The notes beneath the pieces are model-generated. The model did not search any database and was not told where the DNA came from. It saw only the letters and a program-made list of their open reading frames with translations. Below are positions 14,314-62,575 of a stretch of 64,000 bases of DNA, piece by piece. This stretch comes from Thalassia testudinum (taxonomy: Eukaryota > Streptophyta > Magnoliopsida > Alismatales > Hydrocharitaceae). Position 1 is the first letter of the stretch. Each line of letters starts with the position of its first letter. The stretch covers positions 75,075,501-75,139,500 of the forward strand of contig JAZHRO010000013.1 in assembly GCA_037157565.1 (NCBI GenBank), written 5' to 3'. A program made the position numbers and the translations under genes.

Positions 14314-14349
14314 TACGCTGTTATAACCCTGGCATCAAACGTCGTTTAA

Positions 14350-15047: not shown

Positions 15048-15225
15048 GACGTCTGGGCATAGCACCAGACGGCGGAGAGGGTCTCCAGACGTCCGGAGTG
15101 ACAGTCGGACGTCTAGAAACTAAGTCCAGACGGATCAGCGGGCTTCTGGACGTCTGAAGGACCATGTAGGATCAAGGAATGACCTGAGTCATCTTTTAAG
15201 ACGTCTGGAAGATGTTCCAGATGTC
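15048..15225. promoter_or_regulatory. 20-bp phased run of GACGTC-like motifs
   Basis: Motif starts are 15048, 15068, 15088, 15108, 15129 and 15149 (intervals 20, 20, 20, 21, 20), then 15200 and 15220 (20). Some members have decayed, for example GACGGC and GATGTC. CTGG on one side and CCAG on the other let neighbours pair as hairpins. Confidence 0.75.
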
Positions 15226-36504: not shown

Positions 36505-37191
36505 CACATGGCATGTTAAGGTGGAGGTCATGTGAATGAGATAGACTCACACAGGAGAGTCACATGTATTTATAGATATAAAATGTTAGGCTACCTTTCT
36601 AGATCATAAAAGTATTATTATCATTTTTAGCCAAGAGAAATGTGAGTCATATGGAGTCATATGTATCCCTCACATTCAAATTCAAATTTCAGTGGAAAAA
36701 GAGGGAAACTCTGTCTCTAATAACTGTCGTCGACACTACAATAGATGCTAACGACACCACAATCTCAAATTTTGATGAGGACAAGTAAATACCGATGGCA
36801 CTACTGTAGATGCTAACGACATCACCATTAGTGTTAATGGCATTACCACCAGTCGTGTAAGTTTAAATTACTTACCACTTATCTTATTGAAGTGGGTGTC
36901 ATGTGGATGAGATGTAGCCACATAAGAGAGTCACATATACTCACAGATATAAAAGGTTAAACTACATTTTTAGACCTTAAAAGTATTATTACCATTTTTA
37001 ACTAAGAGAAAGGAGAGTCACATGCAGTCACAGGTGACTCTCACATTTGAATTTAAATTTCTATGAAGGGAGAGGGAAACTCTGTCTACAATAGATGCTG
37101 TTGGCACTACAATAGATGCGAACGGCACCACCGTCTCAAATTTCGATGAAGACAAGTAGATGTTAACGGCACCACCTTAGATGTTGATGAC
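36505..37191 (+). repeat. Tandem-repeat array, left half
   Basis: ATGTG(A/G)ATGAG recurs at 36530 and 36901 (371-bp period). Each unit also carries ATATAAAA(T/G)GTTA, TATTA(T/C)CATTTTTA, CATTCAAATTCAAATTT-like and CTACAATAGATGC blocks. The second unit is cut at 37191 by the 18-kb element and continues at 55244. Confidence 0.8.
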
Positions 37192-38115
37192 TGATGAGAA
37201 CCTCATCATGAACCTTAACTAGCACATTTTGACCTAATAAATTGAACAAAAAGTCCTACATAACCTAAGGGAAGGCCTAAATCAGGGAATTGTGAATCTG
37301 AGAATAAAACATTATACAAGGGGTAAAACTGTAATTTTACCATTGTAGTGCATGAAGGGAATTTATAAGGGTCTATACATAGGTCAAGTTAACTTAATAA
37401 GAGAAAAAGTGGGATGATTTGGTCAGAAAAGGGTTATGACAAAATATGGGAATTAAATGACATTTTGTAACCCTAAAATAAATCAACTTTAATTCACGAA
37501 GTTTCAGGCAAGATAAAAATCAACCAAACCCTCTAAAATTTATGGAAAAATATCTTCTAGGGTTTAGAACCTTCAATTTGACCGTTGGAACCTGTTTTGA
37601 CCTAGATTGAGGACCATACCCAATTTTTGACCTAATTTGGATTTTTATGCAAAATAACCAGTCAAACGTGGTCAAACAAAAAATACAACTTCACCATTAG
37701 ATTTATTAGGTCCAAATTAGGTTGGTACCAAAATTTGGACCTAAGGAAAGGTCGTCTTAACCCACTTTGTAATTTAGTCCTCAAAATTACTTTCAGACCC
37801 TCAACTTTTTGAAACTCTTACGAATACCCCCTATCTTGCCCATCATTTTCTTCAATCTGGTCCCTCTGCCACCCGCTGTGCAGGCCATACCTCCGGCGAC
37901 TTTGCGCGGAGGATGGCGCCGCGCATGCATGGGGAGCCGGCCCCAGATTTGAATGGGGAGCTCCTTGCGGAGCCTCCTACTGCATGGGCCGACTCCCATG
38001 CCCTGTCGGCCGGCATACCTCTCGTGCGAACGCGCGAGAGGTATGGGTCTCCATCTGCCTCAACTCCAACAAGACTTTTCCCGCCACTCTCGCGCATTTC
38101 CCGGCTAGCCCTCTC

Positions 38116-38125
38116 CTATTTAAGG
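38116..38125 (+). promoter_or_regulatory. LTR TATA box
   Basis: CTATTTAAGG, kept as CTATTTTAGG near 53487 in the 3' LTR and CTATTTAAGC near 61121 in the chimeric third copy. Transcription would begin about 30 bp downstream. Confidence 0.55.
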
Positions 38126-39350
38126 AGCGACACTCCTCACCGCATCCTCCAAGCTCCATTTGGCCCGAGAATCCCTTCCAATTCCTCTCCTCCCAACTCC
38201 GGCCATTCGCCCAGAGCTTCCGGCGACACTCCTTCTCCTCTCTTGTCGCCCTACCACCATACCAATGGCAGGGTTACCTTCGCCGTCTTCCACCACATCA
38301 CGCCGTACCAGCGGGCGCTCTCCAACACCTCTTCCTCGTCGTCGTCTCTTCCCCTGGGTGCCTTCGTCTCCGGCGACGGCAACACCGGCCTCCCGCCGCC
38401 TCCGCATCCCCCCCTTCACTCTGGACTCACAACTAAGTCCCTCTTACCCTTCTCTTTATTTCCCCTCTGTTAATTTGCTATTTCAACCCCACGACAACCG
38501 TAGACCACCACCATCTCCTCCACCTCCGACAGATCACCGGCGAGGTGTCTCCGTCACCTCCCCACAACCATCCACCTCGCTAGACCCCGCAGAAGCTTCA
38601 CCTCCATCCACTGATCATCTTGCGACCCTCCATCGACTGCGCCACTCACTGAAACCCTGCCCCGAACAAACCCACTCACACCGACTCAAACTGACCTGGG
38701 CATGCACGCCTAGGCTGTTATGAGCCACGCAGACCCCTGCAGTAACTTCGCCGTGCTCTGGCGAAGCCTGCCGAACGTTCTGACAAGGCCACGGGGTCGT
38801 TTGCATGCTTTCAGGTCCCGTGCCTCCGCCGCCATTGACGTCAAGCTTGGAGCAAGCTCGCAAGCAGCTCCAGGCCCTTCCAGCTCCAGGAGACGATCCT
38901 AGGTTGGGCGGAAGACTTCCGCGCACAACTCCAGGTCTTCAATTGGCAGCGAAGACCTCAACTGGAGTGGCTATTGCTCGCACTCCATGCTGCGGGTGAG
39001 CAAGAAAGGAGGGGCGCAGATAGTCTCACCTCGGGCGTTTTTAAGTGCCTCGCGACACATAAAGGGAAAAAGTGACTAAGGCTTATCCCCTTCGTCACAC
39101 GGGGTGAGCTCCCTCTCACCCGCTCACCCGGCCTTGTCCACAACCACCCCCCGCGGACCTGGCCCGACCCATTTACCTAAGCTGTGCACACCTCGCCCAC
39201 CATCGCACGCCGATGGGCCTGGTCCCGGGCGCGTTACCTGACCTGTATACCCGAACAGGCTCTGGGAGAGAGAACCCTAGAGTGAAATAGAGAGAGAGAC
39301 GCGGGGAGGGTAGGGGTTAGGTTTTGCCTAACCATATGCCTATGCAGGGA

Positions 39351-39722
39351 ACTGAAGAAGAAGGAAGAAGAGGAAGAGAAGCAAACTGAAGAAGGAGACG
39401 CAGCTCAAGAAAGAAGAAGAAGCCAAGAAGACCAAGCAGGAAAAGCTGAAGAAGAAGAAAGGAAAGAAAGAAAAAGAAGAAAGAGCAGGAGCTGAAGCAG
39501 AAGAAGAGGAAGAGCTGAACCCAAAGGAGGAAGCTGCAACCGAAGAGAAGAGAAGAAGAAAAAGCCAAGGAGAAGAAGAGCAGCAGCAGGAAAGAAGAAC
39601 CTGTGCACTGTGGCAAGTGGCTACTTAAGGCGTCTGATTCCTAGAATCAGATGTCTGGATACAGAAAGAAGAAGAAAAAGAAAGCCAAAAAGAAAGAGAG
39701 AAGAAGAAAAGGAGAAGAAACA
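39351..39722 (+). repeat. Purine-rich (GAA)-type tract in the LTR
   Basis: Almost pure A/G text at 39351-39600 and 39660-39722, separated by a 60-bp block holding the GTCTGATTC hairpin. It reads as Lys/Glu-rich in one frame, but indels between copies do not preserve that frame. Confidence 0.75.
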
Positions 39723-39878
39723 TTTTATTTCTCTCTAGTTCTTTTTGTAAAACAGTGTATTATTGTAAATTATGATTTTCTATGCTTCTAAAAATCAAGC
39801 TTGCTCTCTGAGTTCGATCTCGGAGGATTTTAATATTCGAGTAATAAAATCAAATCAGACTAGTTCCTCACCAATTTT

Positions 39879-39896
39879 TGGCGCCGTTGATGGGGA
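39879..39896 (+). promoter_or_regulatory. Primer-binding site, tRNA-Asp type
   Basis: TGGCGCCGTTGATGGGGA, five bases after the LTR end. It matches the tRNA-Asp 3' complement used by Athila/Tat elements except at the centre. Confidence 0.8.
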
Positions 39897-40913
39897 GCAA
39901 CGGGCATTTTTAGAAGCTTCAAAATCACAATTTCTAATTTTATACTGACTTGATCTCTCTTCTTGTTGTGCAGGAAAGGCAAGAAAGGGCAAGCAGCCGC
40001 ACAACAACCACACCAGGGACAGGTAACCTTCAGCCCTCCCTCTTAATCCCCTTACATTCTAAAGAGGAAAAAGAAAAGAAAAATCAATCTAGGGCTACCT
40101 GTCTTCTGTACTTAGTAATTCACAGAGTTGCATGATTTTGAATTTCAACACACTTTAACTGCATATCCACTTAAGGTAACTAGGGCTAAAACCTTCGTTT
40201 TTGAGCCCTAATTACCCATTTCTGAGGCAACTAATTAGACCAACTAGAGCCAACCTAGGATTCCAAGCTAGGGTTTTAGAGACACAACTTCTAAACAAAG
40301 AACTGAAAAATCTAAAAGAAGGTGTGCCTAAACCATTGCTTGAAAAGATCTATTAAGAGAAACCTTAAGAAATCCGGCTCTTAATTCACTTGAACACTAA
40401 AAGAAAGGACCTAAGAAGCTCTCATAGGAACAAAAGGTGAAGTTGATCCTTTGGATCAACCAACCTTTAAATTAGGTTACTTTTGCACACAAAAAGCTTA
40501 AAGTTCAAGTGAAACCCTAAGCACCTTGATCTTAATTAAAAGTGGTAGACTTAAGAGGTCAAGGTCCCCATTCTAGTCTACTTGGAATCTCAGTGACAAG
40601 AGAGGTCGGGTGGAGGAAACCCTATAACCCGTGGGGGCACTCTACTGTGTAGGGGTCTTCACGAGACTCACCCTCTCTAGCTGCTCAAGTAATTCTCAGG
40701 TGAACGACCTTCTAATCAAGGGGTATCATCTGCCCCGAACCTCTATAGTCACCCAACATACTTTGGGTGTTTTGATTGGGTACAACACATTCTAACCTCA
40801 TCCAGTCCATCAGTGCATGTTTGGTAGGAGGTCCTTGAAACCTCCTCTAGAAATCCACTCTCCCCGAGGCCAAGCCTCGGCACCCTTGTTTGTGCAACAA
40901 CCACTCCACATAG
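39897..40913 (+). other. Leader of the Athila-like element, non-coding
   Basis: About 1 kb between primer site and gag (before the solo LTR insertion). A splice-acceptor-like TTCTTGTTGTGCAG ends near 39973. No long frame. Confidence 0.5.
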
Positions 40914-41325
40914 TGTTGGTGCTAGAGCACCACGATCATTTGTTTTGATGATAACAAAACACGTGTTATTTAACACTTGCAATTTGAGTCCTAGATTTCA
41001 GGTCAATTGCAAATGTGGACTTGTTTAGACGGAGTTCGAGCTCGCATCCAGGACGGATTGGAGGAGCTTGACGGAAAACAGAGGAGGTTCGCGTGAAGCG
41101 AAAGATTGAAGATGGAAGGAAATGAAGAATATGATAGATTTCCTTCTTTCGTACTTGTTGTATTTTTCGTTTCTTTTGTTGCTCTTTATTTTCCTTAGAT
41201 ATTTCATGTTAAAGAGCTTCAAAGAACCCTAACAGTAGTCCTAGGAACACCGGCACAACCCTAGGATACTTAGGTTTTCTGTAGAATACTTAGAAAACCA
41301 ATATAGGGTTCAAACAGCACTTCCA

Positions 41326-41863
41326 GACGTCTAATTCCCAAATCAGACGTCTGATAAAGTATTTTAAGACGTCTGACTATTGTTTCAGACGTCTGATAAC
41401 TGTTAGGCTGAACATAGTTAGTTCTGTCTGATGAAATCAGACGTCCAGACCTTAGACCAGACGTCTTAGGAGACGTCTGATGACTTTGCCAGACGTCCAA
41501 TTAGTGGACCGTTGGCTGGCTTAGCAAACACTCAAGAATATGACCGTTAGAGCCTTATCAGACGTCCATAGGACTGTCCAGACGTCTGATAAATGACCGT
41601 TTTGCCTCGGCTGACCCAAAATCTCTTCTCAGAGATTTTCTAGCCGTTGCAACGTTTGGAAATCAATTCCCACAGTAAAAGTAGGTTTCCAGACGTCCAG
41701 ACTTAGAGCCAGACGTCCTGTATGTCGTCTGATGGACTTGCACAAAAACCCTGTTTAGATCTGATTCAAGTCAGGGAGAAACCCGCATAGAATCAGACGT
41801 CTGACATTTAAATCAGACGTCTTAAAGTGGCCTTCCAGACGTCTGATGCCAGAGTTAGACGTC
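41326..41863. promoter_or_regulatory. Eight 20-bp pairs of GACGTC palindromes (putative U3 enhancer)
   Basis: GACGTC starts at 41326/41346, 41368/41388, 41440/41460, 41472/41492, 41561/41581, 41692/41712, 41796/41816 and 41838/41858. All eight within-pair spacings are exactly 20 bp; between-pair spacings are 22 or 12 where pairs adjoin. Most sit in (T/C)CAGACGTCTGAT, itself palindromic. GACGTC is the core of the plant bZIP C-box. The array lies upstream of the TATA box, where LTR enhancers lie. Confidence 0.85.
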
Positions 41864-41976
41864 TGATTACCCTGTCAAATGTAATCATTGTCCTGATTTC
41901 GGCCTGATTCTCTTGGGCTTTGTTCCCAACGGCTATAGAACCTTTCCTAAGCCTTCCAAAGCCTTCCTAAGGCCTT

Positions 41977-41984
41977 TATAAATA
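41977..41984 (+). promoter_or_regulatory. TATA box of the copia solo LTR
   Basis: TATAAATA within CCTTTATAAATAGAGGGG, the best TATA match in the LTR. It places the GACGTC array in U3. Confidence 0.75.
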
Positions 41985-42717
41985 GAGGGGAGCCTTTTCA
42001 CACCTAGACACAACAAGAGAAACAAGAGAAACACCTAGACACACAAGAAACACTTTGCAATACACTAAGATCAAGTATTTCCACTCTCTTGTGTCCAAGA
42101 AGCTCTTGCTCTCTAAGCTCAAGTTCTACATCTTGAGAGCATCAAACCGTTGCGCACCCGCTCTCCCGCCGTTGTCTACGAGAGCGAAGTTGCGCCGTTG
42201 CGTGGCTCACGCACCCGCGTCATCGTCGACGCACTCCTTGCAAAGGGGAGTTTCCTTATTCCTATAGAAGCTAGGTTTATAATTACTTTGTTGGCTCTAT
42301 AGGACTTGTTGTTTCTTTTATCTTTGTTATTTTGTTGGGTATTCGCTTTGCGAATTCCCGTCTCCTTCGTGGGACAAAATCCTTCTCGTGGAGAGAAGGG
42401 GTTGAGGAACGCTACCCTCGTACTTGTAGCGTGGTTGTACTGAGGTTGAATCACCCTCATTTAAAGTGATTCGGTTAGTGGATTTGATCAACTAGGTTGA
42501 TCGGAAAATCCTAACTCGAGAGGGTTAGGTGGTGGTTTTCACCCGGTTTGGGTTTCCACCTAAAAATTACTTGTGCACATTTTGTGATTGCTTATTTTGT
42601 GAGATTGCTTTATTTCAATTCCGCATTTTTTTCGTCACGCTGATCTCACCCCTCCAAGTAGGGAAATTTCACATAGACCTCTCTTCTGAATTTGAACCTA
42701 GTTCCCCTTCTTCCATC

Positions 42718-44340
42718 ATGGCTCAACCTGTTGAAGAAGGGAATAATCTTGAGCACCAGCTCCAGCGTCTTAATGACCTCTTCCAGAATTTTATGAACCC
42801 ACCGCAGCGTCCCATGATGCGAGATCACTATAATCTCGCTGCGGTGGCAATTAAGCCTCGAGTCAGAATCCCAACTAGAGGACCTGATTCTGAATTGAAG
42901 CCCAATATGATTCATGCCATACTTAAATTCTATGGGCTTAACTCTGAAGATCCCTTCCAGCATATCAAACAGCTTAACCATCTGGCCCAGACCTTCGGGT
43001 CAGATGCACAAAATCGGAATATCTTACTCATGAAGATGTTCTCTTTCTCCCTTATGGACAAGGTGGCTCATTGGTATCAGACGTAGACCCGTCCGATCAA
43101 CACCTGGGAAGAACTTCAGTCGGAGTTTTTGAAGTTCTTTCCCATTGGTCGAACAAATGCCTTGCGCCATCAGATTACTCACTTCACGCAGCAGACGAGA
43201 GAACCTCTTCATGAGGCATGGGATCGATTCTAGGATCTCATGAGGAAGTGCCCCCTCACAGAGTTCCTAAATGGGAATAAGTCCAATCTTTTTACCAGGG
43301 ACTCTGTGAAGATATTAGATTGTTCGTCAATGCAACTTGTGGAGGGAATATCATGGGTCAACATGAAGACATAGTGTGGGAGATTTTTGAGAATATGTGC
43401 GAGAACTCAATCAACAATGACTCCATGGGATTATTCGACCGGACGAATACCCACGCAGCGACGAATCTCAGGGGAGCACATGAGGTGCAGGGCTTATCCG
43501 CATTCGTCGACTTGGAACTAATGGCCAGTCGGTTGGACAAGGTCTCAATTATTGAGAAGAAGGTGGACGAGCTGACTCAGCATTTGCAGCGAGCCACCTT
43601 TACGCATAACTCCTTCGCACCGCCACCTCCCGCAAGGGAAACTGTGCAGAACATTTCCCACCGATCTCCGAGGATGGACCCGTATCCACCCCCATCTGAC
43701 TCTAGGATCGGAGGGACCTCCGATCCTTTCTATTCTTGCCGGGGGAACTCTACTCCCCCATACTCTGATTTTCCTGAGGCTCCTCAGACCTGTGAGGACC
43801 TCAACGCCATTCAGAATGATCCCTTTTCCAACACCTACAACCCTGGATGGCAAAACCATCCCAATTTCCAGTGGGTAGGAAATTCTCAGACCCAAAGACC
43901 ACCTTATTAGCCTGTCCACAAGCCCCTCGTCCTTATCAGCCGCCTCAGCCTCGGCTCAACCCCACTTATCCATCCAAGCCAACCAAGACCAAATGTCCCT
44001 CATCCTTCAAACTCTGACTGACATTCAAAGAACGAATGCGGTTATCCAGAAACAACACAAGGACGAGATCACAGAGGTCTGCAACCAACTTGCCCAGTTG
44101 GCAAATTCTCGCCAATTGGGCACACTTCCTTCTCAACCTCTGCCTAACCCTAACAACGTGCCGACCCAACGGCACATTATGAACCCGAACCCGGGCCAAG
44201 CACACTTGATCTATCAGGCCCCTTCTATTCCATCACTTGATGGGATGGAAGCATCAACCTCCAATGCGGGTTATCAACAGCAGCAGCCCATCTTACCAAC
44301 TCCTAACCAGAACTAGGTAGAATTAAATTCTGTAACAACC
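42718..44340 (+). pseudogene. Athila-like gag (broken)
   Basis: ATG at 42718 begins MAQPVEEGNN. The following region has the plant retrotransposon gag core (ILKFYGLNSEDPFQHI, DKVAHWYQT, TWEELQSEFLKFFP, REPLHEAWDRF, and later NSVTTRSGK), which forms the virus-like particle. Stops interrupt it near 43084 and 43231. A frameshift near 43310 and another near 43910 move it between frames. The C-terminal part is rich in Pro, Gln and Asn. No CCHC knuckle was recognised. It continues into the protease region with a stop at 44314. Confidence 0.8.
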
Positions 44341-45579
44341 CGTAGTGGTAAAGCAACCCAAGACCCACCTTATCCAGACCACTCCAAGCCTGGTTGTCAC
44401 CTAAACCCTAGGATAGTTATCCAGGATGTCCATGTCCCAGATCAACAACCTGGACCTATTCTAGAGGAACCCACCAAGGTTCCATTTCCCGAGGCCTTGA
44501 CCAAGGGAAAGAGAACAACTAAACCCATGGCTCCTGAGGAGGACCTGATCAAGCTCTTTGAGCAGGTCCAAATAAACATCCCCTTGATGGATGCAATCCG
44601 CCACGTATTGGCTTATGCACGATTTTTGAAGAACGTATGTACACCCCAGCGTAAGCCGCGAACCAAGAGTAGGAGTCCTATTGTACTATCAGAGCAAGCC
44701 AGCTCTGTAATCTTGAGTAAACTCCTACCCAAGGCAAAAGACCTAGGCACTCCCCTGATTTCGTGTAAAATTGGTGAAACCTAATTCGATAGAGCTTTGT
44801 TAGACCTAGGTGCCTCCATTAACCTGATACCCACATCCCTGCTTAACCATCTAGAAGAATTCGAGCTTAAATCGACTGAGGCGACATTGCAGTTAGCTGA
44901 TCGATCCATTAAGTCACCTAAAGGAGTTCCTGAGGATGTTATTGTTAGGGTGTGGGATTTCTACTTCCCAGTAGATTTCATAGTTCTAGACATGGACACA
45001 CCTGAGAATCCAAAGGACACACCAATTATACCAGGGAGACCTTTTCTGGCCACTGCAAGGGCCAACATAAGTTGTGAGGAGGGCCAAATAGAGCTGAAAT
45101 TTGGAAATCAAACCCTCAAGATTGATATCTTTAAGGTCCAACAAGGGATTAATTGCGGTGTGATAGAGCAAATTTGTGATATCAGAGCCGTGGTTGAAGA
45201 ACCACAAATTGAGGACAACATGATTACCCCCAATCAACCACAAGAAGATCTAAAACCACAATTAGAGGAGTCAGAACTTGATCTGGACACACCCCTAACA
45301 CCTACCCTTGTTCCTCACACCCATTCCGAACCACCTGCTGCTGCTGATAACCCCGTTTTGGAACTCAAACCCCTTCCCGACCATTTGAAATATGTCTTTC
45401 TGGGTTTCAATCAGATACTTCCTGTGATTATAAATTCCAGACTCACATATGATCAGGAATCCCGTCCGATTGCTGTTCTCCAGCAACATCGCAGAGCCAT
45501 TGGTTGGACTCTCGATAATTTAATTGGAATAAGTCCCTCTTACTGCACACACCACATCTATTCTGAAGAGGGAGCATGA
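44341..45579 (+). pseudogene. Athila-like aspartic protease region
   Basis: Contains VPFPEALTKGK, INIPLMDAIRHVL and the active-site motif DLGAS with Asp at 44803-44805, then LQLADRSIKSP and GRPFLATARAN. These are typical of the Athila/Tat protease, which cleaves the Gag-Pol precursor. A TAA near 44782 breaks the frame just before the active site. The C-terminal part runs on into the start of the RT region. Confidence 0.82.
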
Positions 45580-46900
45580 CCTTCACGTGAGATGCAGAGA
45601 CGTCTGAACCCTAATCTGCAGGAGGTCGTGAAAAAGGAGATCATTAAATGGTTAGATGTAGGGATCATCTACCCGATCTCCGACAATCGCTGGGTGAGCC
45701 CAATCCAGGTTGTGCCTAAGAAGGTAGGGCTCACCATTATCATGACTGAAACCTGAGAGGTCATACCTACTCGTATAGCCAACTCGTGGAGAGTCTACAT
45801 AGATTACCAAAGACTCAATGCCTCCACGAAGAAGGATCATTTCCCACTACCATTTATTGATCAGATTCTCGAAAAACTAGCGGAAAATAGATTCTTATGC
45901 TTTCTTGATGGGTACCCCGGTTACAACCAAGTGGCAATTCATCCAGAAGACCAAGAGAAGAACACGTTCACTTGCCCCTTCGGGACATACGTGTTCTGAA
46001 GGATGCCTTTCGGTCTCTGCAATGCACCTGCGACTTTTCAGCGGTGCATACTTGCCATATTCTCTGATATGGTAGGTGACTATCTGGAAGTCTTCATGGA
46101 TGGCTTCTCAGTTTTTGGGGCATCATTTGACAATTGCCTCTAGCACTTGGTTCATATACTCTGGCGATGCATTGACGTAAATCTGGTTCTTTCCTGGGAA
46201 AAGAGCCACTTTATGGTGCCTGAGGGAATCGTCCTGGGACATTTGATTTTTGAGAGAGACATCCAAGTGGATCGAGCCAAGGTTAACCTGATTTCTAAAC
46301 CTTCTATGCCTAGCTCGATCAAGGACATCCGATCTTTTCTAGGGCACGTCGGTTTTTACCGTCGATTCATCCTTGATTTCTCGAAAATCGCGCGTCCCCT
46401 GACCACTCTTCTCTCCAAGGATGTGCCTTTTGAAATTTCCAAGGAATGCACTCAAGCTTTTGAGATCCTCCATGACCGAGTCACCCAAGCCCCGATCCTA
46501 CAGTCCCCTGATTGGTCTCAACCCTTTGAGATAATGTGCAATGCATCTGACTTCGCTATAGGAGCGGTTCTGGGGCAAAAGATTGATGGGAAACTCGTGG
46601 TCATCTACTACGCTAGCAAGACACTTGACGAGGCTCAGCGTAACTACACGGTTACGGAGAAAGAGCTGCTAGCTGTAGTATTTGCCCTTGAAAAATTCAG
46701 ATCTTATCTCCGAGGTTCCCATGTTATAATCTACTTAGATCACACAGCTATAAGGCATCTCCTTGCGAAGAAGGACGCGAAGCCTCGATTAATCCGATGG
46801 ATCTTGCTGTTGCAAGAATTTGACCTCGAGATTCACGATAAAGCGGGAAGACAGAACGTGGTAGTTGACCACTTGTCCCGCCTTCCTTCTGAGATCATCA
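45580..46900 (+). pseudogene. Reverse transcriptase - RNase H (broken)
   Basis: RT blocks VVKKEIIKWLDVGIIYPI, SPIQVVPKK, HFPLPFIDQILE, FLDGYPGYNQ and MPFGLCNAPATFQRC are present. The catalytic FMDD is FMDG here (Gly codon 46102-46104), so one metal-binding Asp is lost. RNase H follows (SDFAIGAVLGQ, EKELLAVVFALEKFRSYL, DHTAIRHLL). Its first catalytic Asp is Asn at 46540-46542. Stops lie near 45577, 45754, 45997 and 46141. The enzyme would copy element RNA into DNA, but this copy cannot work. Confidence 0.85.
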
Positions 46901-48240
46901 ACCCTTCTGGATCCATCACAGAGCATTTTCCTGATGAGCACCTCTTGACTATTGGTACTGGGCTTCCATGGTTTGCTGATATAGTAAACTATTTGGCATC
47001 ATACCAGATCCCGTCTGATTGGCCGAAGGCCAAGAAAGACAAGTTGAGTTCTGATGCCAAGTATTACATTTGGGAAGACCCGTACTTATTCCGCATAGGT
47101 GTTGACCAAATTATCTGGCGATGTGTCTGGGAGGTCAAATTCAATGGCATGCTTTCTTTCTATCATGACCAGGCATGCGGTGGCCATTTTTCTGGGCATA
47201 AAATCGCATCGAAAATCCTTCAGTGTGGCTTTTACTAGCCCACTATCTTCAAGGACGCATACAGTCACTGTAAGGCATGCAGCCGTTGCCAAACTTTGGG
47301 CAACATGAGCCATCGCAACATGATGCCTCTACAACCGATTCTCGTATGCAAGATTTTTGATATTTGGGGGATTGATTTTATGGGCCCTTTCCCTATCTCG
47401 GACGACTTCGAGTACATTTTACTCGATATTGACTACATGTCCAAATGGATCGAAGCTATTTCGACCCAAACCAGTGATCACAAGATCGTTATCAAATTCA
47501 TTCATTAGAATATCCTCTCAAGGTTCGGGATTCCTCGAGCTATCATTTCTGATGGAGGGACCCATTTTACCTACGCTCAATTCAAGTCACTAATGACCAA
47601 ATACGCGGTGTCGCACCGAATCTCTACTCCTTATCACCCACAGACTAATGGTCTAATTGAGCTATCAAATCGGGAGATTAAGAAAATTTTGCAGGTTTCT
47701 GTTCGACCTGACAGGAAGGACTGGTCATCCTGACTTTCGGAAGCTTTGTGGGCTTATAGGACCGCCCACAAGATCCAATTAGGCATGTCTCCTTTTAAAC
47801 CGGTATACGGGAAGGCGTGTCGCCTCACCGTCAAACTGGAGCATAAAGCCTATTAGGCAGTATGGAATTGCAACCTAGATCTTTCTAAGGCTGGAACCCA
47901 CAAAAAGCTTCAGATAAGAGAGATTGATGAATTACGCCTTGATGCGTATGAAAACTCATGAATCTACAAAGAGAGGGTTAAAGCCTTTCATGACAAGCAC
48001 ATATCTAGAAAGATCTTTCACCATGGTCAGAAGGTCCTACTCTTCGATGCCCGACTTAAATTGTTTCCTGGAAAACTACAATCCAAGTGGGTCGGACCAT
48101 ATCTTGTCTGACAGATCTTTGGAAATGGAGTCGTCGAGATCAGTCCACTTAGCCATGATTCCGAACCTTTCGTCATGAACGATTAGAGACTCAAACCATT
48201 CATTGACATGACCAATACAAATTTGGCTGAGTCATCATTT
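46901..48240 (+). pseudogene. Integrase (broken)
   Basis: The zinc-binding HHCC region is visible (HFSGHK near 47187 and CKACSRC at 47269-47289). The DDE core residues are retained: Asp in GIDFMGPFP near 47372, Asp in IISDGGTHF at 47551, and Glu in TNGLIELSNREIK near 47659. Stops at 47236, 47506, 47731, 47854, 47959, 48109 and 48184 break the frame. The C-terminal part, with KWVGPYLV, is present. Confidence 0.85.
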
Positions 48241-49804
48241 ATCCTCCATTCTCCCTGAGCTCATTTCGCCCGGCCGATGGTGTAAAACTCAGCGCTTAAC
48301 GAGAGGCAACCCATCATTCTTTTGAAAATCCAAAACCTTTTCTGACATTTCTTTGCGCTTTAGGGTCATCCTTTAGGACGCCGACTCCACCTCAGATACT
48401 CGTACCTGAGAGTAGAAATCGTCCGCAACAGTTACCTCAACCCATCCACTCACCCAATACCTATTCTAATGCATAAACCAAGGTAAATAAAAACCCACCT
48501 AATGTATAATGAGGACATTGCAAATCTTAGGCATGGGGGGATATGAAAGTGCAATAAAAATTCATAACAAGAAAAGGTTTCAACAAAAATTCACATATGA
48601 CAAAAACACCCAAAAAAATGGGACGAGGGAAGAAAATTTTTTCTTTACAAAAGGAAGAGGAAAAGAGCAAAATTCTAAAAAGGAGCAAAAAATGAAAAAG
48701 AAGAGATAGTCATTAGTAAGAAATTCAAGAATTAACCAAAGTTCTAGATCACATTAAAAGAAAAGCAAAGAGAAAGCGCTACAGGAACACAAGAAGATTA
48801 GTAAGAATGCTAACCTTAGGCCTTGTTGGACTAGACTCTTAGTACCCATTAAGATCTAGATATTCCTCAAGAGGTTGAGGAAAATGAAAAGCTTAACTAT
48901 TAGGTCTAAGGCTTAGGGAGTATTCGGCCTCGTTAACTGACCTTCGGTTTACGGAACTCGGTAACCTAAGCACCCCAATTCACACACAGTCTGGTTCATG
49001 AGCATAAATATCAAAATCACGTAGAAGCGTTTCTAATGTTCTGAAAATATCACCTAGATTAGGAGCAGCCGATCAACACAAGTTGATTTGGATGAGTTCC
49101 CGACGCGGAGAGGTGGGAAATTCCCCTTGAAGATGCGTAACAACATATCGTCTCCTCGGTGCTTGTCTCCTAGGATATTTACATATCCTACTGGGGGCAT
49201 GTAAGCACTCTGCTGGTTCAGATTCCATGGATGGCAATATCATGAAATGCCAATTGCCAAGGTTTGAATTCGGCCACGGAACGCCATGGGCAGGATTATC
49301 TCGAAATCTCGAAAATCAGGGTTCTGGGGGTTACCATGGGCGGTGCTATCTCAAAGCATCGATTGCCAGGAACCTTTGAGGATTGATGATGGGGACGAGG
49401 AATCCGATACAGATCATGTTGTGAAGCAAATCCTAAGCTAGAGTTAAAAAGGAAAGAAAGAGAAAACTCTCCAAACAAATAAACCCTGTCTCTCTCTTAC
49501 AAAACGCACTGCAAACTGAACCAAGGCTAAAAATGCCTCAAGCACGGGTGCTTTAACCACCGAGTCCAATAAACCTTAGGGTAGTTCCTGCAAACCTTAA
49601 AAACATTTCCTGAGGACTGAGACTAAAGCTAGACAGATCTGGATCTTGGTTGGTACTAGAGCACCTTCAGGCCTATGGTCGGCATTTTGACCTAATCAAA
49701 GAAAGAAAGAGAAGGAAAAGCACTTATCAAAATTGATGAAAGGAACTCATGGTCTAGAACAAAGGTTAAAACCTTAATATTTTGCTAAGGAACTAGCAAA
49801 AGCT
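48241..49804 (+). other. 3' non-coding internal region of the Athila-like element
   Basis: It begins with the AACGAGAGGCAACCCA-type text that follows pol in this lineage. No env-like or antisense gene was found. Lys-rich frames near 48509-48709 come from A-rich composition. Confidence 0.6.
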
Positions 49805-49816
49805 AGGCATGGGGGT
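49805..49816 (+). promoter_or_regulatory. Polypurine tract of the Athila-like element
   Basis: GGCATGGGGG, which would originally have abutted the TGATGAG start of the 3' LTR. The solo LTR inserted exactly at this junction and duplicated GGTAT. Confidence 0.7.
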
Positions 49817-49818
49817 AT

Positions 49819-52548
49819 TGTTACGAACAAGGGCATCAAAAGTAGTTTAAGACGTTTGGGAAGTGTCCCAGACGTCTGGAACCCTTCCCAGACGTCTGGT
49901 ATTAAATTTTTTCGGCGTACGGGTTCGCGTCTGCGCGCCTGCGCGCGCAGACTGAACCTGCCGCCTTCGTTTTTCTCTTTCTCTCCCTGTAGGCGCCACT
50001 TTCCTTCTTCTCTCTCCCCACAGCTGCCTTATAAGAACGCTCCCCCTCTCCCTCACCCTCACTTCACCGACTTCTCTTCTCCTTGCCAGCGAGAACGCGA
50101 GCGAGCGAGTGAGCGAGTGCTGCAGCAGCGGCTGCTGCGAGCGTGCGGGAAGGAGGAGTGTTGCGAGAGGAAGAAGAAAGCTCGACCGCGAAGGTGCGAT
50201 CTTGCCGGGGCAGCTAGAGCCGGCCGGCGAGAGGGCAGCGAGTGTGGGGTGGTGCGGAGGAGCTGCTGCAGCTCGGGCAGCAGGCGGACGCAGCGCGGCG
50301 CGGCCGTGCGTCGTAGGCGGAGAGCGAAAAGGGTCTTGATTCTGGGAAAATTTCTCAGAATCAGACGTCTGGACTTACGTCCAGACGACACCGAAGACGT
50401 CTAGAGGAAGGTCCAGACGTCCGATAGGTACAATATTTTCCTACCTTCTCCTTTTTACGCGTGTATGGCCATGCAGCCGTCCGTCGCGTTCTTCTGCGCC
50501 TCTTCGTGATGAGAGCGGGTGTGTGTGTGCGTAGGTTCTGTTCGGGAGGGCGCGAGGGCTCGCCATCCCACACGGATCAGACATCTGGCCACAGTACCAG
50601 ACGACGGAGAGGACCTCCAGACGTCCGGGGTGATAATCGAACATCTGGGAACTAGGACCAGACGATCCAGCGGGCTTCTGGTCGTCTGAAGGACTGCGCA
50701 GACCAAGGTATGACCTGATCGACCTTTTAAGACGTCTGGAAGAAGTTCTAGACATCTGATTTTGGGCAAACTCGTCGTTTTTGACCCGTTTAAGGTCTGT
50801 TAGGAGTCCGTTTTCCGCGTTTCAAGTTTCGTTCTTTCCAGATTTATTTCCTATACCTGTTTACAGTAATTGTATAATGTTCTGAGAAACTCCTTGTGAT
50901 TGATCCTTGTGTTAGGACCCCGTTCCGTTGCGGTTTTGGGGGTTGCAGAGGCGCGCGGGACTGCCAACCACGGCCCTAGTGCTCTCGGTTTCGCGGGTAG
51001 AGTGGCCCTTTAATTTATTTAACAAAATTGTACAATTATGAAATAATTAATAGAGTCTAGGGCATTGCATGAACCCTAGGGCTGAAGAATTAGATTGAAT
51101 GATAGATCCTAGGGTATTGCATGAATCTTAGAACTGGAAAACTAGATTGAATGATAGATCCTAAAGTATGGCATGAATCCTAGGACTGGAAAACTAGTTG
51201 AATATATACATTGCAGTCTTGGAAAAGTGGAAAGGAAATGATAACTGCCCGTAAATTGGTTAACAATTGCCTGTTATGAATGAATAAATACGATTGAGAA
51301 CATGAATTGTATGGATATAAACCTGGAACGGTGAAACCTAAATTGGCTGAGTTAAAAGAGCCCGAACCCTACGGGGAATTAGGAGTAGAACTCCTGGAAA
51401 GTGAATGAAATAGAATTGGGGAAGTGAGCTAGCCCTTGAGTACGGAGTACCAAGGAGAGCAACTGTCCCCCTATTTAGTGCAGAGCGGAGCTAGCCGCCC
51501 CAGGGATTCGGGGTTAGGTCTGGCCACTTTGTACCAACTTTTGGCCCTCGTGTACAGAGTACCGAGGAGAGCTACTAGTGTAGGGAGAGCACTGGCTACC
51601 CCACGGGACCCGGGGTTTTGCTAGCCCTCCTACACTGACTTGTTAGGCCCACGGGGCAAACCAGGGTAGTCAGGCGAGGGTGCGCGGACTGTGGAGGGGC
51701 AAGACCCCTGTTTGATTACTGTGGAGGGGCTGGACCCCTGTTACTGAGAGGGCTCTGCCCTATACTGGTTCCGTGCTGTGCTTTGGACGCACCCGTTAAG
51801 AAAAACGACTGACCGCATGCCAGTGCGGGGTAGTTACCCATGCGCTTATTGCGCGTGCCGTAGTCACCGTTACGTCTGTCAGCGACCTTGGGGTGGTTGA
51901 CTGAGGGTAGGACCACCACGGAGGACTCTCCCGGCCAGGAGAGCACCACGTGTTACTTCTACTTTTCGGAAAAGACTGCAATCAAGATCATTCCCACGAG
52001 GAACATTCAAGATCAAGAGAAGGATCTGAGAAATAAATCAATAGTGAATAAATGGAAAAATATAAATAAATAAAGTAAAAATATAACAGCTACTGTACAC
52101 TCTACTGCTTTTTTTAGCTTTTAGTTACCACTCTACTCAGCGTTTCGCTGACGTGTCACCCTTGTTACCCTTTCAGGACCAGGTGTTGAGCAGCCAGAGT
52201 CAGCGGCTGCAGAGGACGCTGGGCCTAGTAGAGCCCAGTAGTGTTACCTGTAGTACCTCCTATACTTTTCTTTCCGCTGTAGTGAGTAGTTTTCTGTTAC
52301 TCCCTGTACTCTCTTTATTGTAAGCTTCATGTTATGTACATGTTTATTTCTCTTCTGTTGTGGTGGTGTATACTGTAGTATTTCCTTTCTTTACTGCTGT
52401 ATTTTGTTACTGTTAGTTATATACATGGTGAATGTGGTTTATTTTACTGCTCTTTTGGTTACTTTCTCGTTGGACGACTGAGTCTTGGGATTAGTCGAGT
52501 CAGTCCGATTCTCATGTCTCGTAGGGATTAGGGAATCGGGTCGTTATA
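49819..52548 (+). mobile_element. Solo LTR B (2.73 kb), same family as 14319-17011
   Basis: Starts TGTTACGAAC and ends GGGTCGTTATA (final CA mutated to TA). It is flanked by GGTAT at 49814-49818 and 52549-52553. It aligns with solo LTR A throughout and has a TATA-like TTATAAG near 50029. It keeps the phased motif positions (49851, 49871, 49891; 50364, 50376, 50384, 50396, 50416; 50580, 50600, 50620, 50640, 50661, 50681), although many are now GACATC or GACGAC. Confidence 0.88.
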
Positions 52549-52552
52549 GGTA

Positions 52553-55238
52553 TGATGAGAACCTCATCATGAACCCTAACTAGCACATTTTGACCTAATA
52601 AATTGAACAAAAGCTCCTACATAACCTAAGGGAAGGCCTAAATCAGGGAATTGTGAATATGAGAATAAAACATTATACAAGGGGTAAAACTGTAATTTTA
52701 CCATTGCAGTGCATGAACGGGATTTCTAAGGATCTATACACAGGTCAAGTAAACTTAATAAGAGAAAAAGTGGGATGATTTGGTCAGGAAAGGATTATGA
52801 CAAAATCTATGAATTAAATGACATTTTGTAACCCTAAAACAAACCCACTTTAATTCACGAAGTTCCAGGAAAGATAAAAATCAACCAAACCATCTAAAAT
52901 TCATGGAAAAATATCTTATAGGAATTAGAACCTTCAATTTGATCGTTGGAACCTATTTTGACCTAGATTATGACCATACCTAATTTTTGACCTAATTTGG
53001 GTTTTTATGCAAAATGATCAGTCAAACATGGTCAAACTAAAAATCCAACTTCACCATTGGATTTCTTAGGTCCAAATTAGGTTGGTACCAAAAATTGAAC
53101 CTAAGGAAAGGTCGTCTTGACCCACTTTGCAATTTAGTCTTCAAAATTACTTTCAGACCCTCAACTTTTTGAAACTCTTACAAATACCCTACTATCTTTC
53201 CCGTCATTTTCTTGAATCTGGTCCCTCTGCCACCCACTGTGCAGGCCATACCTCTGGCGACTTTGCGCGGAGGATGGCACTGTGCATGCATGGGGAGCCG
53301 GCCCCAGATTTGAAAGGGGAGCTCCCTGCGGAGCCCCTGCCGCATGGGCTGGCTCCCATGCCCTATCGGCCGCCATACCTCTTGTGCGAACGCACGAGAG
53401 GTATGGGTCTCCATCTGCCTCAACTCTGACAAGACTTTTTCCGCCACTCTCGCGCATTTCCCGACCAGCCCTCTCCTATTTTAGGAGCGGCACTCCTCAC
53501 CGCATCCTCCAAGCTCCATTTGGCCTGAGAATCCCTTCCAATTCCTCTCCTCACAACTCCGGCCATTCGCCCAGAGCTTCCGGCGACACTCCTCCTCTCT
53601 CGTCACCCTGCCACCATAACAATGGCAGGGTTACCTCCATCGTCTTCCGCCGCACCACGCCATACCAACGGGCGCTCTCCAACACCTCTTCCTCGTCGCC
53701 GTCTCTTCCCCTGGGCGCCTTCGTCTCGAGTGACGGTAGCACCGGCCACCCGCCACCTCCACATCCCCCCTTCACTCTGGACTCACAGCTAAGTCCCTCT
53801 TACCCTTCTCTTTATTTCCCCTCTGCTAATTTGCTATTTCAACCCCTCGACAACCGTAGACCACCACCATCTCCTCCACCTTCGGCAGATCACCAGTGAG
53901 GTGTCTCCATCACCTCCCCACAACCATCCACCTCGCCAGACCCCGCAGAAGCTTCACCTCCATCCACTGATCATCTTGCGACCCTCCATCGACCGCGCCA
54001 CTCACTGAAACCCTGTCCCGAACAAACCCACTCACACAGACTCAAACCAACCTGGGCATGCATGCCTAGGCTATTCTGAGCCACGCCGACCCCTGCAGTA
54101 ACTTTTCCGTGCTCTGGCGAAGCCTGCCGAACGTTCTGACAGGGCCACGAGGTCGTTTGCGTGCTTTCAGGTCCCGTGCCTCCGTCGCCATTGACGTCGA
54201 GCTTGGAGCAAGCTCGCAAGCAGCTCCAAGCCCTTCCAGCTCCAGGAGACGAGCCCAGGTTGCGCGGAAGACTTCCCGCACAACTCCAGGTCTTCCATTG
54301 GCAGCAAAGACCTCGGCTGGAGTGGCTATTGCTCGCACTCCCTGCTGCGGGCGCGCGAGAAAGGAGGGGCGCAGATAGTCCCACCTCAGGCGTTTTCAAG
54401 CGTTCCCGCGACACATAAAGGGAAGAAGTGACTAAGGCTTATCGCCTCAATCACACGGGGTGAGGTCCCTCTCACCCGCTCACCCGACCTCGTCTGTGAC
54501 CACCCCCCGCGGACCTGGCCCGACTCGTTTACCTAAGCTGTGCACACCTCGCCCACCACTGCACGCCGGTGGGCCTGGTCCCGGGTGCGTTACCTGACCT
54601 GTATACTCAAACAAGCTCTCGGAGAGCGAACCCTGGAGTGAAACAGAGAGAGAGAGACGCGGGGAAGGTAGGGGTTAGGTTTTACCTAACCATATGCCTG
54701 TGTAGGGAACTGAAGAAGAAGGAAGAAGAGGAAGAGGAGAAGCAAACTAAAGAAGAAGGAGACGCAGCTCAAGAAAGAAGAAGCCAAGAAGACCAAGCTA
54801 AAAAAGCTGAAGAAGAAGAAGAAGAAAGGAAAGGAAGAAAAAGAAGAAAGAGCAGGAGCTGAAGCAGAAGAAGAGGAAGAGCTGAAGCCAAAGGAGGAAG
54901 CTGCAGCCGAAGAGAAGAAGAAAAAGCCAAGGAGAAGAAGAGCAGCAGCAAGAAAGAAGAAGAACCCGTGCACTGTGGCAAGTGGCTACTTAAGGCGTCT
55001 GATTCCTAGAATCAAACGTCTGGAGACAGAAAGAAGAAGAGAAAGAAAGCCAAAAAGAAAGAGAGAAGAAGAGAAAGAGAAGAAACACTTTATTTCTCTC
55101 TAGTTCTTTTTGTAAAACAGTGTATTATTGCAAATTGTGATTTTTTATGCTTCTAAAAATCAAGTTTGCTCCCTGAGTTCAACCTCAAAGAATTTTAATA
55201 TTCGAGTAATAAAATCAAATCAGACTGGTTCCTCATCA
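52553..55238 (+). repeat. 3' LTR of the Athila-like element
   Basis: Copy of 37192-39873, ending GGTTCCTCATCA, the reverse complement of the LTR start apart from one base. Its first base is shared with the target duplication of the solo LTR inserted just before it. Confidence 0.88.
54708..55086 (+). repeat. Purine-rich tract, 3' LTR copy
   Basis: Counterpart of 39351-39722, differing by in-frame and out-of-frame GAA-length changes. Confidence 0.75.
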
Positions 55239-55243
55239 ATGAC

Positions 55244-56335
55244 ATCACCATTGCTTCTAATGGCATCACCACTAGTCACGTGAGTTTAGATATCAATGCT
55301 ACCAACATTTTCATGTTGGTGCCCCTACCACCTATTCAGTAACTTTTATAGTACTCAAGTATCTATTACAAACGCTTGTTACTTTTCTTGGTATTGTTTG
55401 CATCGATTACTCATCACTTATCTTGTTGTTGTTGGCATTAATTTGGTAAACACCTATTGTGGTGCTGACAGCACCACCATAAGTGCTAACGACATTACCC
55501 ATTGGTGTTAGTGGCATCACCACCAATCGCGTAAGTTTAGATACCAATGTCACAACATATTTGTTGTTGGCATAAATTACCGATCACTTTTCTTGTTGAG
55601 GTGGATGCTATGTGGATGAGGTAGAGCCACATAGGAGAGTCACATGTGCTCATGGATATAAAAGGTTCAACCAATTTTTTATACCCTAAAAGTGCTATTA
55701 CCATTTTTAATAACTAAGAGAAAGGGCATTCACATGAAGTCATATGTGCCCCTTACATTCAAATTCAAATTTCGGTGAAGGAAAAGGAAAACTCTATCTC
55801 CAATAGGTACCGTCAGCACTACAATAGATGCTAACGGCACCACCATCTCAAATTTCGATGAAGGCAAGTTGATGCTGACGGCATCACCATCGGTGTTAAT
55901 AGCATCACCACCAGTCACGTAAATTTAGATACCAATGTCACCACGTACGTTTTTATATTGTTGTTGGCATCGATTATTTATCACTTATCTTGTTGAGGCG
56001 GATGACATGTGGATGAGGTGGAGCCACATATGAGAGTCAAATTTGCTCATGAATATAAAAGGTCAAACCACCTTTTTAGACCCTAAAAATACTATTACCA
56101 TTTTTAACCAAGAGAAATGAGTGTCACATGAAGTCATATGTGCCCCTCACATTCAAATTCAAATTTTAGTGGAGAGAGAGGAAAGCTCTGTCTCCAATAG
56201 GTGTCATTGGCAATACAATAGATCCTAATGGCACCACTAATTCAAATTTCGGTGAAAACAAGTAGGTATTGACAACACTACAATTGGTGTTGACAGCATC
56301 AATGTTACCACAGTTATTTAGGCCAACAATTCAAA
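55244..56335 (+). repeat. Tandem-repeat array, right half
   Basis: Further units of the array at 36505-37191, with ATGTGGATGAG at 55610 and 56007 (397-bp spacing) and the same internal blocks. A shorter partial unit with GGCATCACCACCA precedes them. The ATGAC duplication at 55239-55243 marks the insertion. Confidence 0.8.
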
Positions 56336-60197: not shown

Positions 60198-61258
60198 TAA
60201 TGAGAACCTCATCATGAACCCTAACTAACTTACTTTGATCTAATAAAATGAACAAGAGCTCCTACATAAACTAAAGGAAGGCCTAATTCAGGGGATTACT
60301 GATCTGAGAAGAGAACATAAAACAAAGGGTAAAACTATAATTTTACCATTGCAGTGTATCAACAGGATTTCTAAGGGTCTAGACATAGGTCAATTGGACT
60401 TAATAAAAGAAAAAGTGGGATGGTTCAGTTGGAAAAGGGTTATTGTGAAATTTAGAAATTAAATGACATTCTATAACCCTAAAATAATCCAGTTAAATTC
60501 ACAAGGTTTTAGGCAAGATAAAAATCAACTAAACCCTCTAAAATTCATGTAACAATATTCCCTAGGGTTTAGAACCTTCAATTTGGCCTTTGGAACCTGT
60601 TTTGACCTAGATTGGGGATCAAGTCCAATATTTGACCTAATTTGGATTTTTGTGCAAAATATCCAGTAAAACGAGGTCAAACTTAAAATCCAACTTCACC
60701 ATTGGATTTCTTAGGTCAAAATTAGGTTTGTACCAAAATTTAAACCTAAGGGAAGGTCATCTTGACCCACTTTGCAAATTGGTCCACCCAATTACATTCT
60801 GGCCCTTAACTTTTGAAAATCCTTGCAAATACCCTCTCAGCTTTCTCATCACTTTCTTCATTTTTGGTCCCTCTGCCATCGCAGCAGGGACCAATACTGT
60901 CGGCGACTTTGCGAGGAGGTTTTCTCCTCATCTCCATGGGGAGCTGCTCCCATATTTGAAAGGGGAGCTCTTTGCGAAGCCCCCTACCACATGAGCAGCT
61001 CCCCATACTCTGAATCGCCCCATATCTCTTGTGCGGACACTCGAGAGGTATGGGTCTCACTCCGGCCATACCTATGACGTGGTGTGCCTGCCGCTTCCTT
61101 GCGATTCCCCCTCTGCCTGCGCCTATTTAAGCTTGCCTAGAGCCCTCCGCTTCTGGCAAGCCTGATTTGGCCGAAGAAATCCCCCCAATTTCATCTCCTC
61201 CTCCTCCGGCCATCCGCCAGCAGGCTCCGGCGAATCTCCCTTCCTCTTCTCGTCGCTC
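60198..61258 (+). mobile_element. Direct 5' half of a TGATGAG-family LTR
   Basis: It starts TAATGAGAACCTCATCATG and follows 37192 to about 38253 of the 5' LTR, including the CTATTTAAGC TATA block. It stops at the CGTCGCTCTG equivalent of TGTCGCCCTA. The left neighbour is interrupted RT sequence. Confidence 0.75.
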
Positions 61259-61274
61259 TGTGGTGACGGGTTTT

Positions 61275-62575
61275 TGATCATCACCGTGTTTGATTAGATT
61301 TTATTACTCAAATATTTTAAAAATTCTCCAAGGTCGAACACAAGGAGCAAGCTTGATTTTAGAAGTATAAAAATTCACAATTTACAATAATGTACTATTT
61401 TTTAAAAAACTAGAGAGAAAGGAAATAAAATGTTTCTTCTCCTTTCTTTTCTTCTCTCTTTCTTCTTTGTCCTTCTTTCTCTTCTTCTTTCAATCTACAG
61501 ACATCTGATTCCATGAATCAGACGCCTTAAATAGTGTTGCTACAGTGCACTTCTTCTTCCTTCCTTTGTCTGCTGCTGCTCTTCTTCTCCTTGGCTTTGT
61601 TTTTTCTTCTCTTCTCTTCGGCTGCAGCTCCCTTCTTTGGCTTCAACTCTTCCTCTTCTTCTGCTTCAACTCCTGCTCTTTCTTCTTTTTCTTCCTTTCC
61701 TTTCTTCTTCCTCTTCAGCTTTTCCTGCTTGGTTTTCTTGGCTTCTTCTTCTTCTCTTTTGAGCTGCGTCTCCTTCTTCAGTTTGCTTCTCCTCTTCCTC
61801 TTCTTCTGCTTCAACTCCTTGGTGCAACTAAGTCCTCGACTGCTTCTTCCTCTTCTCTTCTTTTGCTGCTCTTCTTTTCTTCTGCATCATCTTCTTTCTT
61901 CTTCTTCTGCATCCTCTTCTTTCTTCTTCTTCCTCTTCCTCTTCCCTGCATAGGTACCCGATTAAGCAAAACCAACCCCTACCCTTCCCTCATTTCTCTC
62001 TCTCTCCATTTCTCTCTTAGGTTCGCTCTCCCAGAGCCTGCTCGAGTATACGGGTCGGGTATATGCGCCTGGGACTAGGCCACCAGCGTGTGGTGGTGGG
62101 TGAGGTGTGCTAGGCCTAAGTAACCGAGTCGAGCCAGGTCCGCGGGGGGTGGTCGCGGACGAGGCCGGGTGAGCAGGTGAAAGGGACCTCACCCTGTATG
62201 ACTGAGGCAATAAGCCTCAGTCACTTTCCAATTTATGTGCTGCGAGGCGCTTGAAAACTCATGAGGTGGGACTAAACGTCCCACCCTTCTGCCTGTGTTC
62301 CCACAGCTGAAGGCGCGAGCAATTTCAGCGCCAGCTGAGGTCTTCAATGCTAATTGAAGACCTGGAGTTGTGCACGGAGGTAATCCGCGCAACCTGGGTC
62401 CGTGTCGTGGGGCTGGAAAGGCCTAGAGCTGCTTGCGAGCTTGCTCCAAGCTCGGCGTCAATGGCGGCGGAGGCTCGGGACCTAAAATCAAGAATACGGC
62501 CTTGCGGCCCTGTCAGAACACTTGTCGAGCTTCGCCTGAGCACGGCGAAGATGACTCGGGGGTCAGCGTGGTGTG
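61275..62575 (-). mobile_element. Inverted 3' half of a TGATGAG-family LTR
   Basis: From TGATCATCACC (degenerate LTR terminus) rightward, this is the reverse complement of about 39873 down to 38725 of the 5' LTR. It includes the AAGCTTGATTTTAGAAG block, the purine tract (as pyrimidines, 61430-61950) and the GC-rich GAGCACGGCGAAG end. The large frames here on the plus strand are the pyrimidine tract, not genes. Confidence 0.75.

Follow-up and report, generated by a model that had tools for sequence, protein, structure and literature searches.

A solo LTR in the seagrass Thalassia testudinum carries sixteen GACGTC hexamers (41326-41863), and these form eight pairs in which the two sites start exactly 20 bp apart in every case (8/8). 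The same motif at the same 20-bp step recurs in two LTRs of a second family within the window, that is, the whole stretch of 64,000 nucleotides analysed here. With a probability of roughly 0.58, we read the array as the U3 enhancer of a Sirevirus-like Ty1/copia LTR, on which paired dimers of a host factor, 20 bp apart, would drive transcription. Palindrome arrays of Sireviruses were first described in 2010; what looks new is that the sites are strictly paired and that this pairing turns up again in another element, one that seems to be unrelated.

Sixteen paired sites in LTR A

The array lies on LTR A (40914-42671, plus strand), a Sirevirus/copia-like solo LTR of 1758 bp, which begins with TGTTGG, a start that we take to be copia-like, ends with TTTCA and is framed by the 5-bp direct repeat CATAG (40909-40913 and 42672-42676) as target-site duplication. 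It starts 412 bp into the LTR, spans 538 bp and ends at 54% of the LTR length, with 12 of the 16 sites before the midpoint. A TATA box (TATAAATA, 41977-41984, plus strand), recognized by its consensus match only, is located 60% along the LTR and 114 bp after the last hexamer. The preliminary description had placed the array 110-650 bp upstream of this box, in good agreement with the distances of about 114-651 bp found here. The C-rich stretch CTCACCCCTCC (42645-42655, plus strand) stops 16 nt short of the LTR end and is similar to the integrase signal of Sireviruses. The earlier assignment to a copia-type LTR is likely, as the layout resembles that of Sirevirus LTRs, and by analogy membership in this group is probable; as a solo LTR, however, LTR A has no coding region and lacks the internal part in which the multiple polypurine tracts, conserved LTR/PBS junction and copia gene order of Sireviruses would be seen.

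LTR A is enclosed by the two LTRs of a gypsy-like element (37192-39875 and 52553-55240), which are 91.6% identical to each other (K2P 0.077), and an RNase H domain (PF17917) is found in reading frames downstream of LTR A. The element into which LTR A inserted looks like Ty3/gypsy, a label that is based on the RNase H and on what follows the 5' LTR; the sequence at this place, TTGGCGCCGTTGATGGGG, presumably resembles an Athila/Tat primer-binding site. The coding sequence beside the array belongs to the gypsy-like host element and is therefore uninformative on the class of LTR A. The gypsy-like element (37192-55240) is split by at least two solo LTRs, namely LTR A and LTR B2 (49819-52548), the latter sitting at the junction with the 3' LTR. 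A repeat of about 370-390 bp occurs on both sides of the element (36514-37191 and 55484-56301), which gives the impression that a tandem, satellite-like array was the site of insertion. Elsewhere in the window, diverged tandem repeats with a unit of about 174-185 bp extend over nearly 3 kb (6979-9899) and are a possible satellite.

The position, copy number, palindromy and exact spacing of the sites can be read directly from the DNA. Pair 1 (41326-41351) is followed by pair 2 (41368-41393), with 22 bp from the start of its second site to the start of pair 2. Pair 3 (41440-41465) and pair 4 (41472-41497), the latter starting 12 bp after the second site of the former, make up a 20-12-20 quartet. 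Pair 5 (41561-41586) and pair 6 (41692-41717) stand further apart, and pair 6 has a degenerate third site, TGTCGTCT, 12 bp on (41723-41730). Pair 7 (41796-41821) and pair 8 (41838-41863) are again separated by 22 bp. In order, the seven gaps between the pairs thus measure 22, 52, 12, 69, 111, 84 and 22 bp. Adjoining pairs had been described as 22 or 12 bp apart, which holds for three of the seven gaps but not for those of 52, 69, 111 and 84 bp. All sixteen hexamers and all eight 20-bp distances of the preliminary description were recovered, and its picture of a modular array with rigid spacing, upstream of a TATA box in an LTR, is supported.

This arrangement is far from what random sequence would give. 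Whole-window shuffles yield about 0.04 GACGTC per 538 bp, in line with the earlier expectation of less than one, and for the window as a whole 38 occurrences stand against 5.18 expected. When 16 sites were placed at random in 538 bp, the best of 50,000 placements had six pairs at any lag up to 100 and none reached eight. In a comparison of all hexamers of the window, GACGTC forms 12 pairs at lag 20, eight of them in LTR A; only TATATA and ATATAT, both at lag 8, are more frequent, probably as a result of A/T microsatellites, while the overlapping AGACGT ties with it. The next palindromic hexamer at a single lag is AAATTT with 4 pairs.

All sites of LTR A read AGACGTC(T/C), with A at position -1 in 16/16. 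The statement that most of them are extended palindromes such as ATCAGACGTCTGAT was too strong: palindromy extends over 8 bp in 11 of the 16 sites, over 10 bp in five and over 12 bp in three, and the 14-bp form ATCAGACGTCTGAT occurs once. While the hexamers are identical in 16/16, the eight linkers resemble one another no more than shuffled ones do over their inner 10 nt (28.2% vs 25.9%, sd 2.5%). The whole 14-nt linkers exceed their shuffles (39.0% vs 26.0%, sd 2.2%) because of the linker ends. The array has a G+C content of 44.8% and a CpG o/e of 0.89, which is 0.55 outside the hexamers.

The same step in a second LTR family

The preliminary description overlooked that two further LTRs in the same window possess the same motif at the same 20-bp step. 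LTR B1 (14319-17011, plus strand) is a solo LTR of 2693 bp with the direct repeat TACGC on both sides, and LTR B2 (49819-52548, plus strand) one of 2730 bp with GGTAT on both sides. They share 83.6% identity over the main alignment, and from their terminal sequences we assume them to be of the Ty3/gypsy, Tekay/Del kind. By eye, no C-rich signal near the LTR end is present in the last 50 bp of B1 (AATTGGGTCGTAACA) or B2 (AATCGGGTCGTTATA). Both LTRs also contain three tandem copies of a 52-bp unit (ATAGATCCTAGGGTATTGCATGAATC...), at 15524-15678 and 51050-51203, respectively.

Counting full and half sites, B1 has the motif at 14349/14369, 14832, 14864/14883 (19 bp apart) and 15199/15219, together with a run of six full or half sites (15047-15148) with steps of 20, 20, 20, 21 and 20 bp. 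In B2, full, half or degenerate AGACGTCT sites are found at 49850/49870/49890, 50363/50383/50395/50415 (20-12-20), 50579/50599/50619, 50660/50680/50700 and 50730/50750. With at most one mismatch allowed, there are three lag-20 pairs in B1 and four in B2, where about 0.1 would be expected per LTR. A run as long as the six sites of B1 (half-sites counted) was not seen in any of 20,000 random placements, whereas the longest run of B2, three sites on the same count, was reached in 1% of the placements. The recurrence of motif and step is observed in a sample of one copy of LTR A and two of LTR B, all within the window.

Apart from these modules, little connects the two families. On the plus strand, every match between family B and LTR A with E <1 falls inside the array of LTR A, and the best ones (80% over 40 bp and 84% over 32 bp) lie on the motif modules. 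LTR A (41440/41460/41472/41492) and B2 (50363/50383/50395/50415, one of them a half-site) share the 20-12-20 quartet. Outside the octamers, the best match between a module of LTR A and one of family B is 19/32, which is above shuffles (fraction 0.004) and makes an exchange of modules between the families possible, but these shuffles preserved base composition only and shared flank preferences could also give 19/32.

Within family B the motifs seem to be kept better than their surroundings. In the aligned first 1.2 kb of B1 and B2, 79 of 88 motif columns are identical, compared with 902 of 1141 elsewhere (Fisher p = 0.013), and 8 of 10 motif CpGs are kept, compared with 50 of 115 (Fisher p = 0.044); both comparisons are biased because the sites were picked for their motif match in either copy.

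Sirevirus motifs and the as-1 element

The closest known kind of structure to the array of LTR A is, by analogy, the array of repeated motifs in Sirevirus LTRs. According to the text of Bousios et al. 2010 (PMC2829016), 13 Sireviruses carry palindromic repeated motifs in at least eight copies per element, with 3-14 copies in the 3' LTR; they mostly start 200-400 bp into the LTR, extend over 300-500 bp and precede a TATA box around mid-LTR, and a C-rich integrase signal lies some 21 bp short of the LTR end. LTR A agrees in the palindromic nature and high copy number of its motif, although its 16 copies in a single LTR exceed the 3-14 of Table 3 in that publication. Its start at 412 bp and its span of 538 bp are slightly beyond the published values, with 12 of 16 sites in the upper half, and its TATA box at 60% is near the middle, a little downstream of the published average. 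The distance of CTCACCCCTCC from the LTR end is 16 nt instead of about 21 bp.

There are also clear differences. A CGG-CCG core is present in 12 of the 13 motifs of Table 3, Tnd-1 being the exception (PMC2829016), whereas LTR A has a CAG/CTG core and a CGG/CCG core in none of its 16 sites. The Sirevirus clusters are described as forming a CpG island (PMC2829016); the array of LTR A has a CpG o/e of 0.89 but a G+C fraction of only 0.448. Among the listed motifs, that of Usier (GTCGGACGTCCGAC; PMC2829016) is nearest and has the GACGTC centre in common with LTR A. Compared with CAGACGTCTG, this Usier motif is altered at both outer CpGs in a manner consistent with C-to-T changes. Since the inner CpG is intact in 16/16 sites, a family with a motif of its own appears more likely than a decayed Usier motif. 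A fixed or 20-bp paired spacing is not described in the consulted text of PMC2829016, and its authors could put no name to a protein that reads the palindromes. We call the array of LTR A a variant that might work like the repeated motifs of Sireviruses.

In maize Sireviruses, clusters of palindromes in the cis-region of the LTR likewise come with strong predicted secondary structure, but their consensus CACCGGACNNNGTCCGGTG, interrupted at its centre, is able to fold on its own (PMC10760457, PMC5311732). The palindromes of LTR A are uninterrupted and, unlike CACCGGACNNNGTCCGGTG, should be able to fold only with a neighbour.

The as-1/ocs element, which is bound by TGA bZIP factors, consists of two palindromes 4 bp apart (PMC4677692), and for its 8-mers we calculate 12 bp from centre to centre. 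As in this element, two ACGT-type palindromes stand at a fixed distance in LTR A, and steps of 12 bp occur between pairs, from 41460 to 41472 in LTR A and from 50383, a half-site, to 50395 in B2. Unlike as-1/ocs, the main step is 20 bp, there are sixteen sites, and the octamer is AGACGTCT or its variant ending in C rather than TGACGTCA. Adjacent TGAC/GTCA palindromes 12 bp apart (centre to centre) were not found in LTR A.

The literature titles and abstract openings listed, mostly outside subscription papers, gave no pointer to 20-bp paired GACGTC in LTRs, and the consulted parts of the publications on MASiVEdb (PMC3414828) and OsTGA2 (PMC6239283) hold nothing further on the array. A copia-like start sequence matched 16 contigs of the viral_contigs collection, and by eye the 16 matches listed, taken from loci read as a single string of 145,741 bases, were not LTR-start-like; a second pair pattern had no match in this collection. 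A sigma-70 promoter scan was set aside as irrelevant to a plant sequence.

Readings of the array

If the array is an enhancer, each AGACGTCT-type palindrome would bind one dimer of a host DNA-binding protein, and the distance of 20 bp, about two helical turns, would bring the two dimers of a pair into contact with each other or with a shared bridging protein. With eight of these modules ahead of the TATA box at 41977, recruitment would be cooperative and high-copy and would result in transcription of the element. Protein binding, cooperativity, activation and the identity of the factor are inferred. Exact hexamers at a 20-bp step, with diverged inner linkers in LTR A and kept motifs in family B, suit protein dimers held at a fixed distance.

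The leading candidates for the factor would be bZIP proteins that recognize an ACGT core (C-box), which are plausible as judged from the motif. TGA factors prefer TGACGTCA, and the sites of LTR A carry A at position -1 in place of its T. As the octamer differs from the TGA consensus, any such factor is a candidate only, and the stress or light response considered in the preliminary description would be equally hypothetical. HY5 is reported to bind the GACGTC C-box in EMSA and ChIP (PMC6914869). Beyond the octamer the flanks are not self-symmetric: at 2-6 nt from the site, 22 of 80 positions match in LTR A, fewer than the 29.7 obtained with flanks dealt anew, and 36 of 110 compared with 42.1 in family B. 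The site of a single dimer is therefore probably no longer than about 8 bp.

The preliminary description also proposed that paired dimers sit on one face of the DNA. Inside the clusters of LTR A, same-face phasing is suggestive: the within-cluster distances (12, 20, 22, 32, 42, 52 and 62 bp) have a best period of 10.4 bp, and with the 20-bp steps fixed and the inner gaps drawn at random from 7-30 bp, their coherence at 10.5 bp was reached in 0.03% of 3000 draws. An equally high coherence at some period of 8-16 was seen in 6.7% of the draws, and 20% of them had their best period at 10.2-10.7. We keep the helical fit as suggestive because only three gaps (22, 12 and 22) carry it. The array as a whole has a coherence of only 0.30 at 10.5 bp, and the 20-bp run of family B would drift around the helix.

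As a serious though less probable alternative, the palindromes might act instead as RNA or single-stranded hairpins in U3-containing transcripts, either in small-RNA production and silencing or in packaging or dimerisation. The array folds with -219.5 kcal/mol, compared with a shuffle mean of -139.8 (z = -12; none of 100 shuffles as good), and this extreme stability is a point against an enhancer, which needs none. Folded singly, 10 of the 13 modules of LTR A and family B have z < -3 with at most 1 of 200 shuffles as good, and palindrome clusters of maize Sireviruses are small-RNA hotspots (Bousios et al. 2016, as cited in PMC10760457 and PMC5311732). However, arrays of palindromes fold well by construction, so that the fold z-score does not separate the two readings, and folding is weak in three modules, namely 41682-41745 (z +0.15; equalled by 110 of 200 shuffles), 50570-50700 (z -1.16; by 24 of 200) and 50720-50765 (z -2.16; by 6 of 200). 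Hairpin arms, moreover, need neither palindromy of their own nor exactly 20 bp. The flanks of pair partners show no partner-specific covariation in either family: in LTR A, 16 of 40 inner positions are complementary, compared with 14.3 for swapped partners, and 17 of 40 outer ones, compared with 18.4. The inner flanks of family B at 2-4 nt are complementary in 23 of 33 cases, but swapped partners give 22.9. As they are complementary whatever the partner, the pair has an overall dyad, which also suits hairpins. A role as an enhancer and a role in hairpin or small-RNA formation may coexist.

The 20-bp regularity might also be a mutational by-product without function, left when a unit of about 20 bp was duplicated by slippage or unequal exchange and the linkers decayed; as an account of the array we consider this improbable. 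A history of duplication does appear visible in the sequences of family B, where B2 has about one 20-bp unit more than B1 close to the start of the LTR (49850/49870/49890 against 14349/14369) and six sites of B1 stand in a row at 20-21 bp. In LTR A, TRF calls a 20-bp array at 41343-41404, and the two 20-22-20 quartets are identical at 23 of 58 positions outside the octamers, compared with 15.2 in shuffles (1.7% as good). This likeness is gone, however, when the two bases beside each octamer are omitted (13/42 vs 11.0), no run of sites in LTR A exceeds two at 20 bp, which is not unusual among random placements, the gaps between pairs vary, and in their inner 10 nt the linkers give no sign of a shared origin. 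The CpG-containing hexamers, moreover, are perfect at the very place where neutral decay should strike first. Chance or a low-complexity artefact is a negligible explanation, refuted at the sequence level by the shuffles, the random placements and the all-hexamer comparison. In the whole viral_contigs collection, a single contig contains the strict pattern AGACGTCT-N12-AGACGTCT, as a lone pair (L001, 6926-6953) whose two sites are separated by TATATA; the locus has 62% G+C, and the match is probably itself due to chance.

Should the enhancer reading extend to both families, unrelated lineages, one copia (Sirevirus-like) and one probably Ty3/gypsy, would use one grammar of AGACGTCT at 20-bp steps and 20-12-20 quartets, acquired by convergence or by module exchange, and a single host assembly that reads palindrome pairs at 20 bp would have been captured repeatedly. 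We put this forward as a tentative idea that is doubtful at present. If true, it would break the specificity for Sireviruses that is stated for motif arrays among copia elements (PMC2829016), and competing families of retrotransposons would converge on, or trade, one regulatory input of their host. The rigid geometry of the pairs offers a concrete handle, as the complex expected from it would be tetrameric or bridged.

A degenerate pair in LTR C, the LTR of the gypsy-like element and a third family, AGGCGTCT and AGATGTCT (39628-39656), is weak, with a lag of 21 bp, and a pair of this type recurs at the same lag in the other LTR C (54993-55021). We rejected it as part of the 20-bp grammar; it is found in three copies but is degenerate and single, and it may only be a hairpin. 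On folding, one of two LTR C modules was below z = -3 (39618-39665, z -3.27) and the other was not (54983-55030, z -2.48). All three copies (39618-39665, 54983-55030 and 61490-61530) keep the short inverted repeat AGGCGTCTGATTC...GAATCAGATGTCT, which adjoins a long purine-rich tract. The third LTR C-like copy (60200-62571) is rearranged, its first kilobase being direct and the remainder inverted relative to the others.
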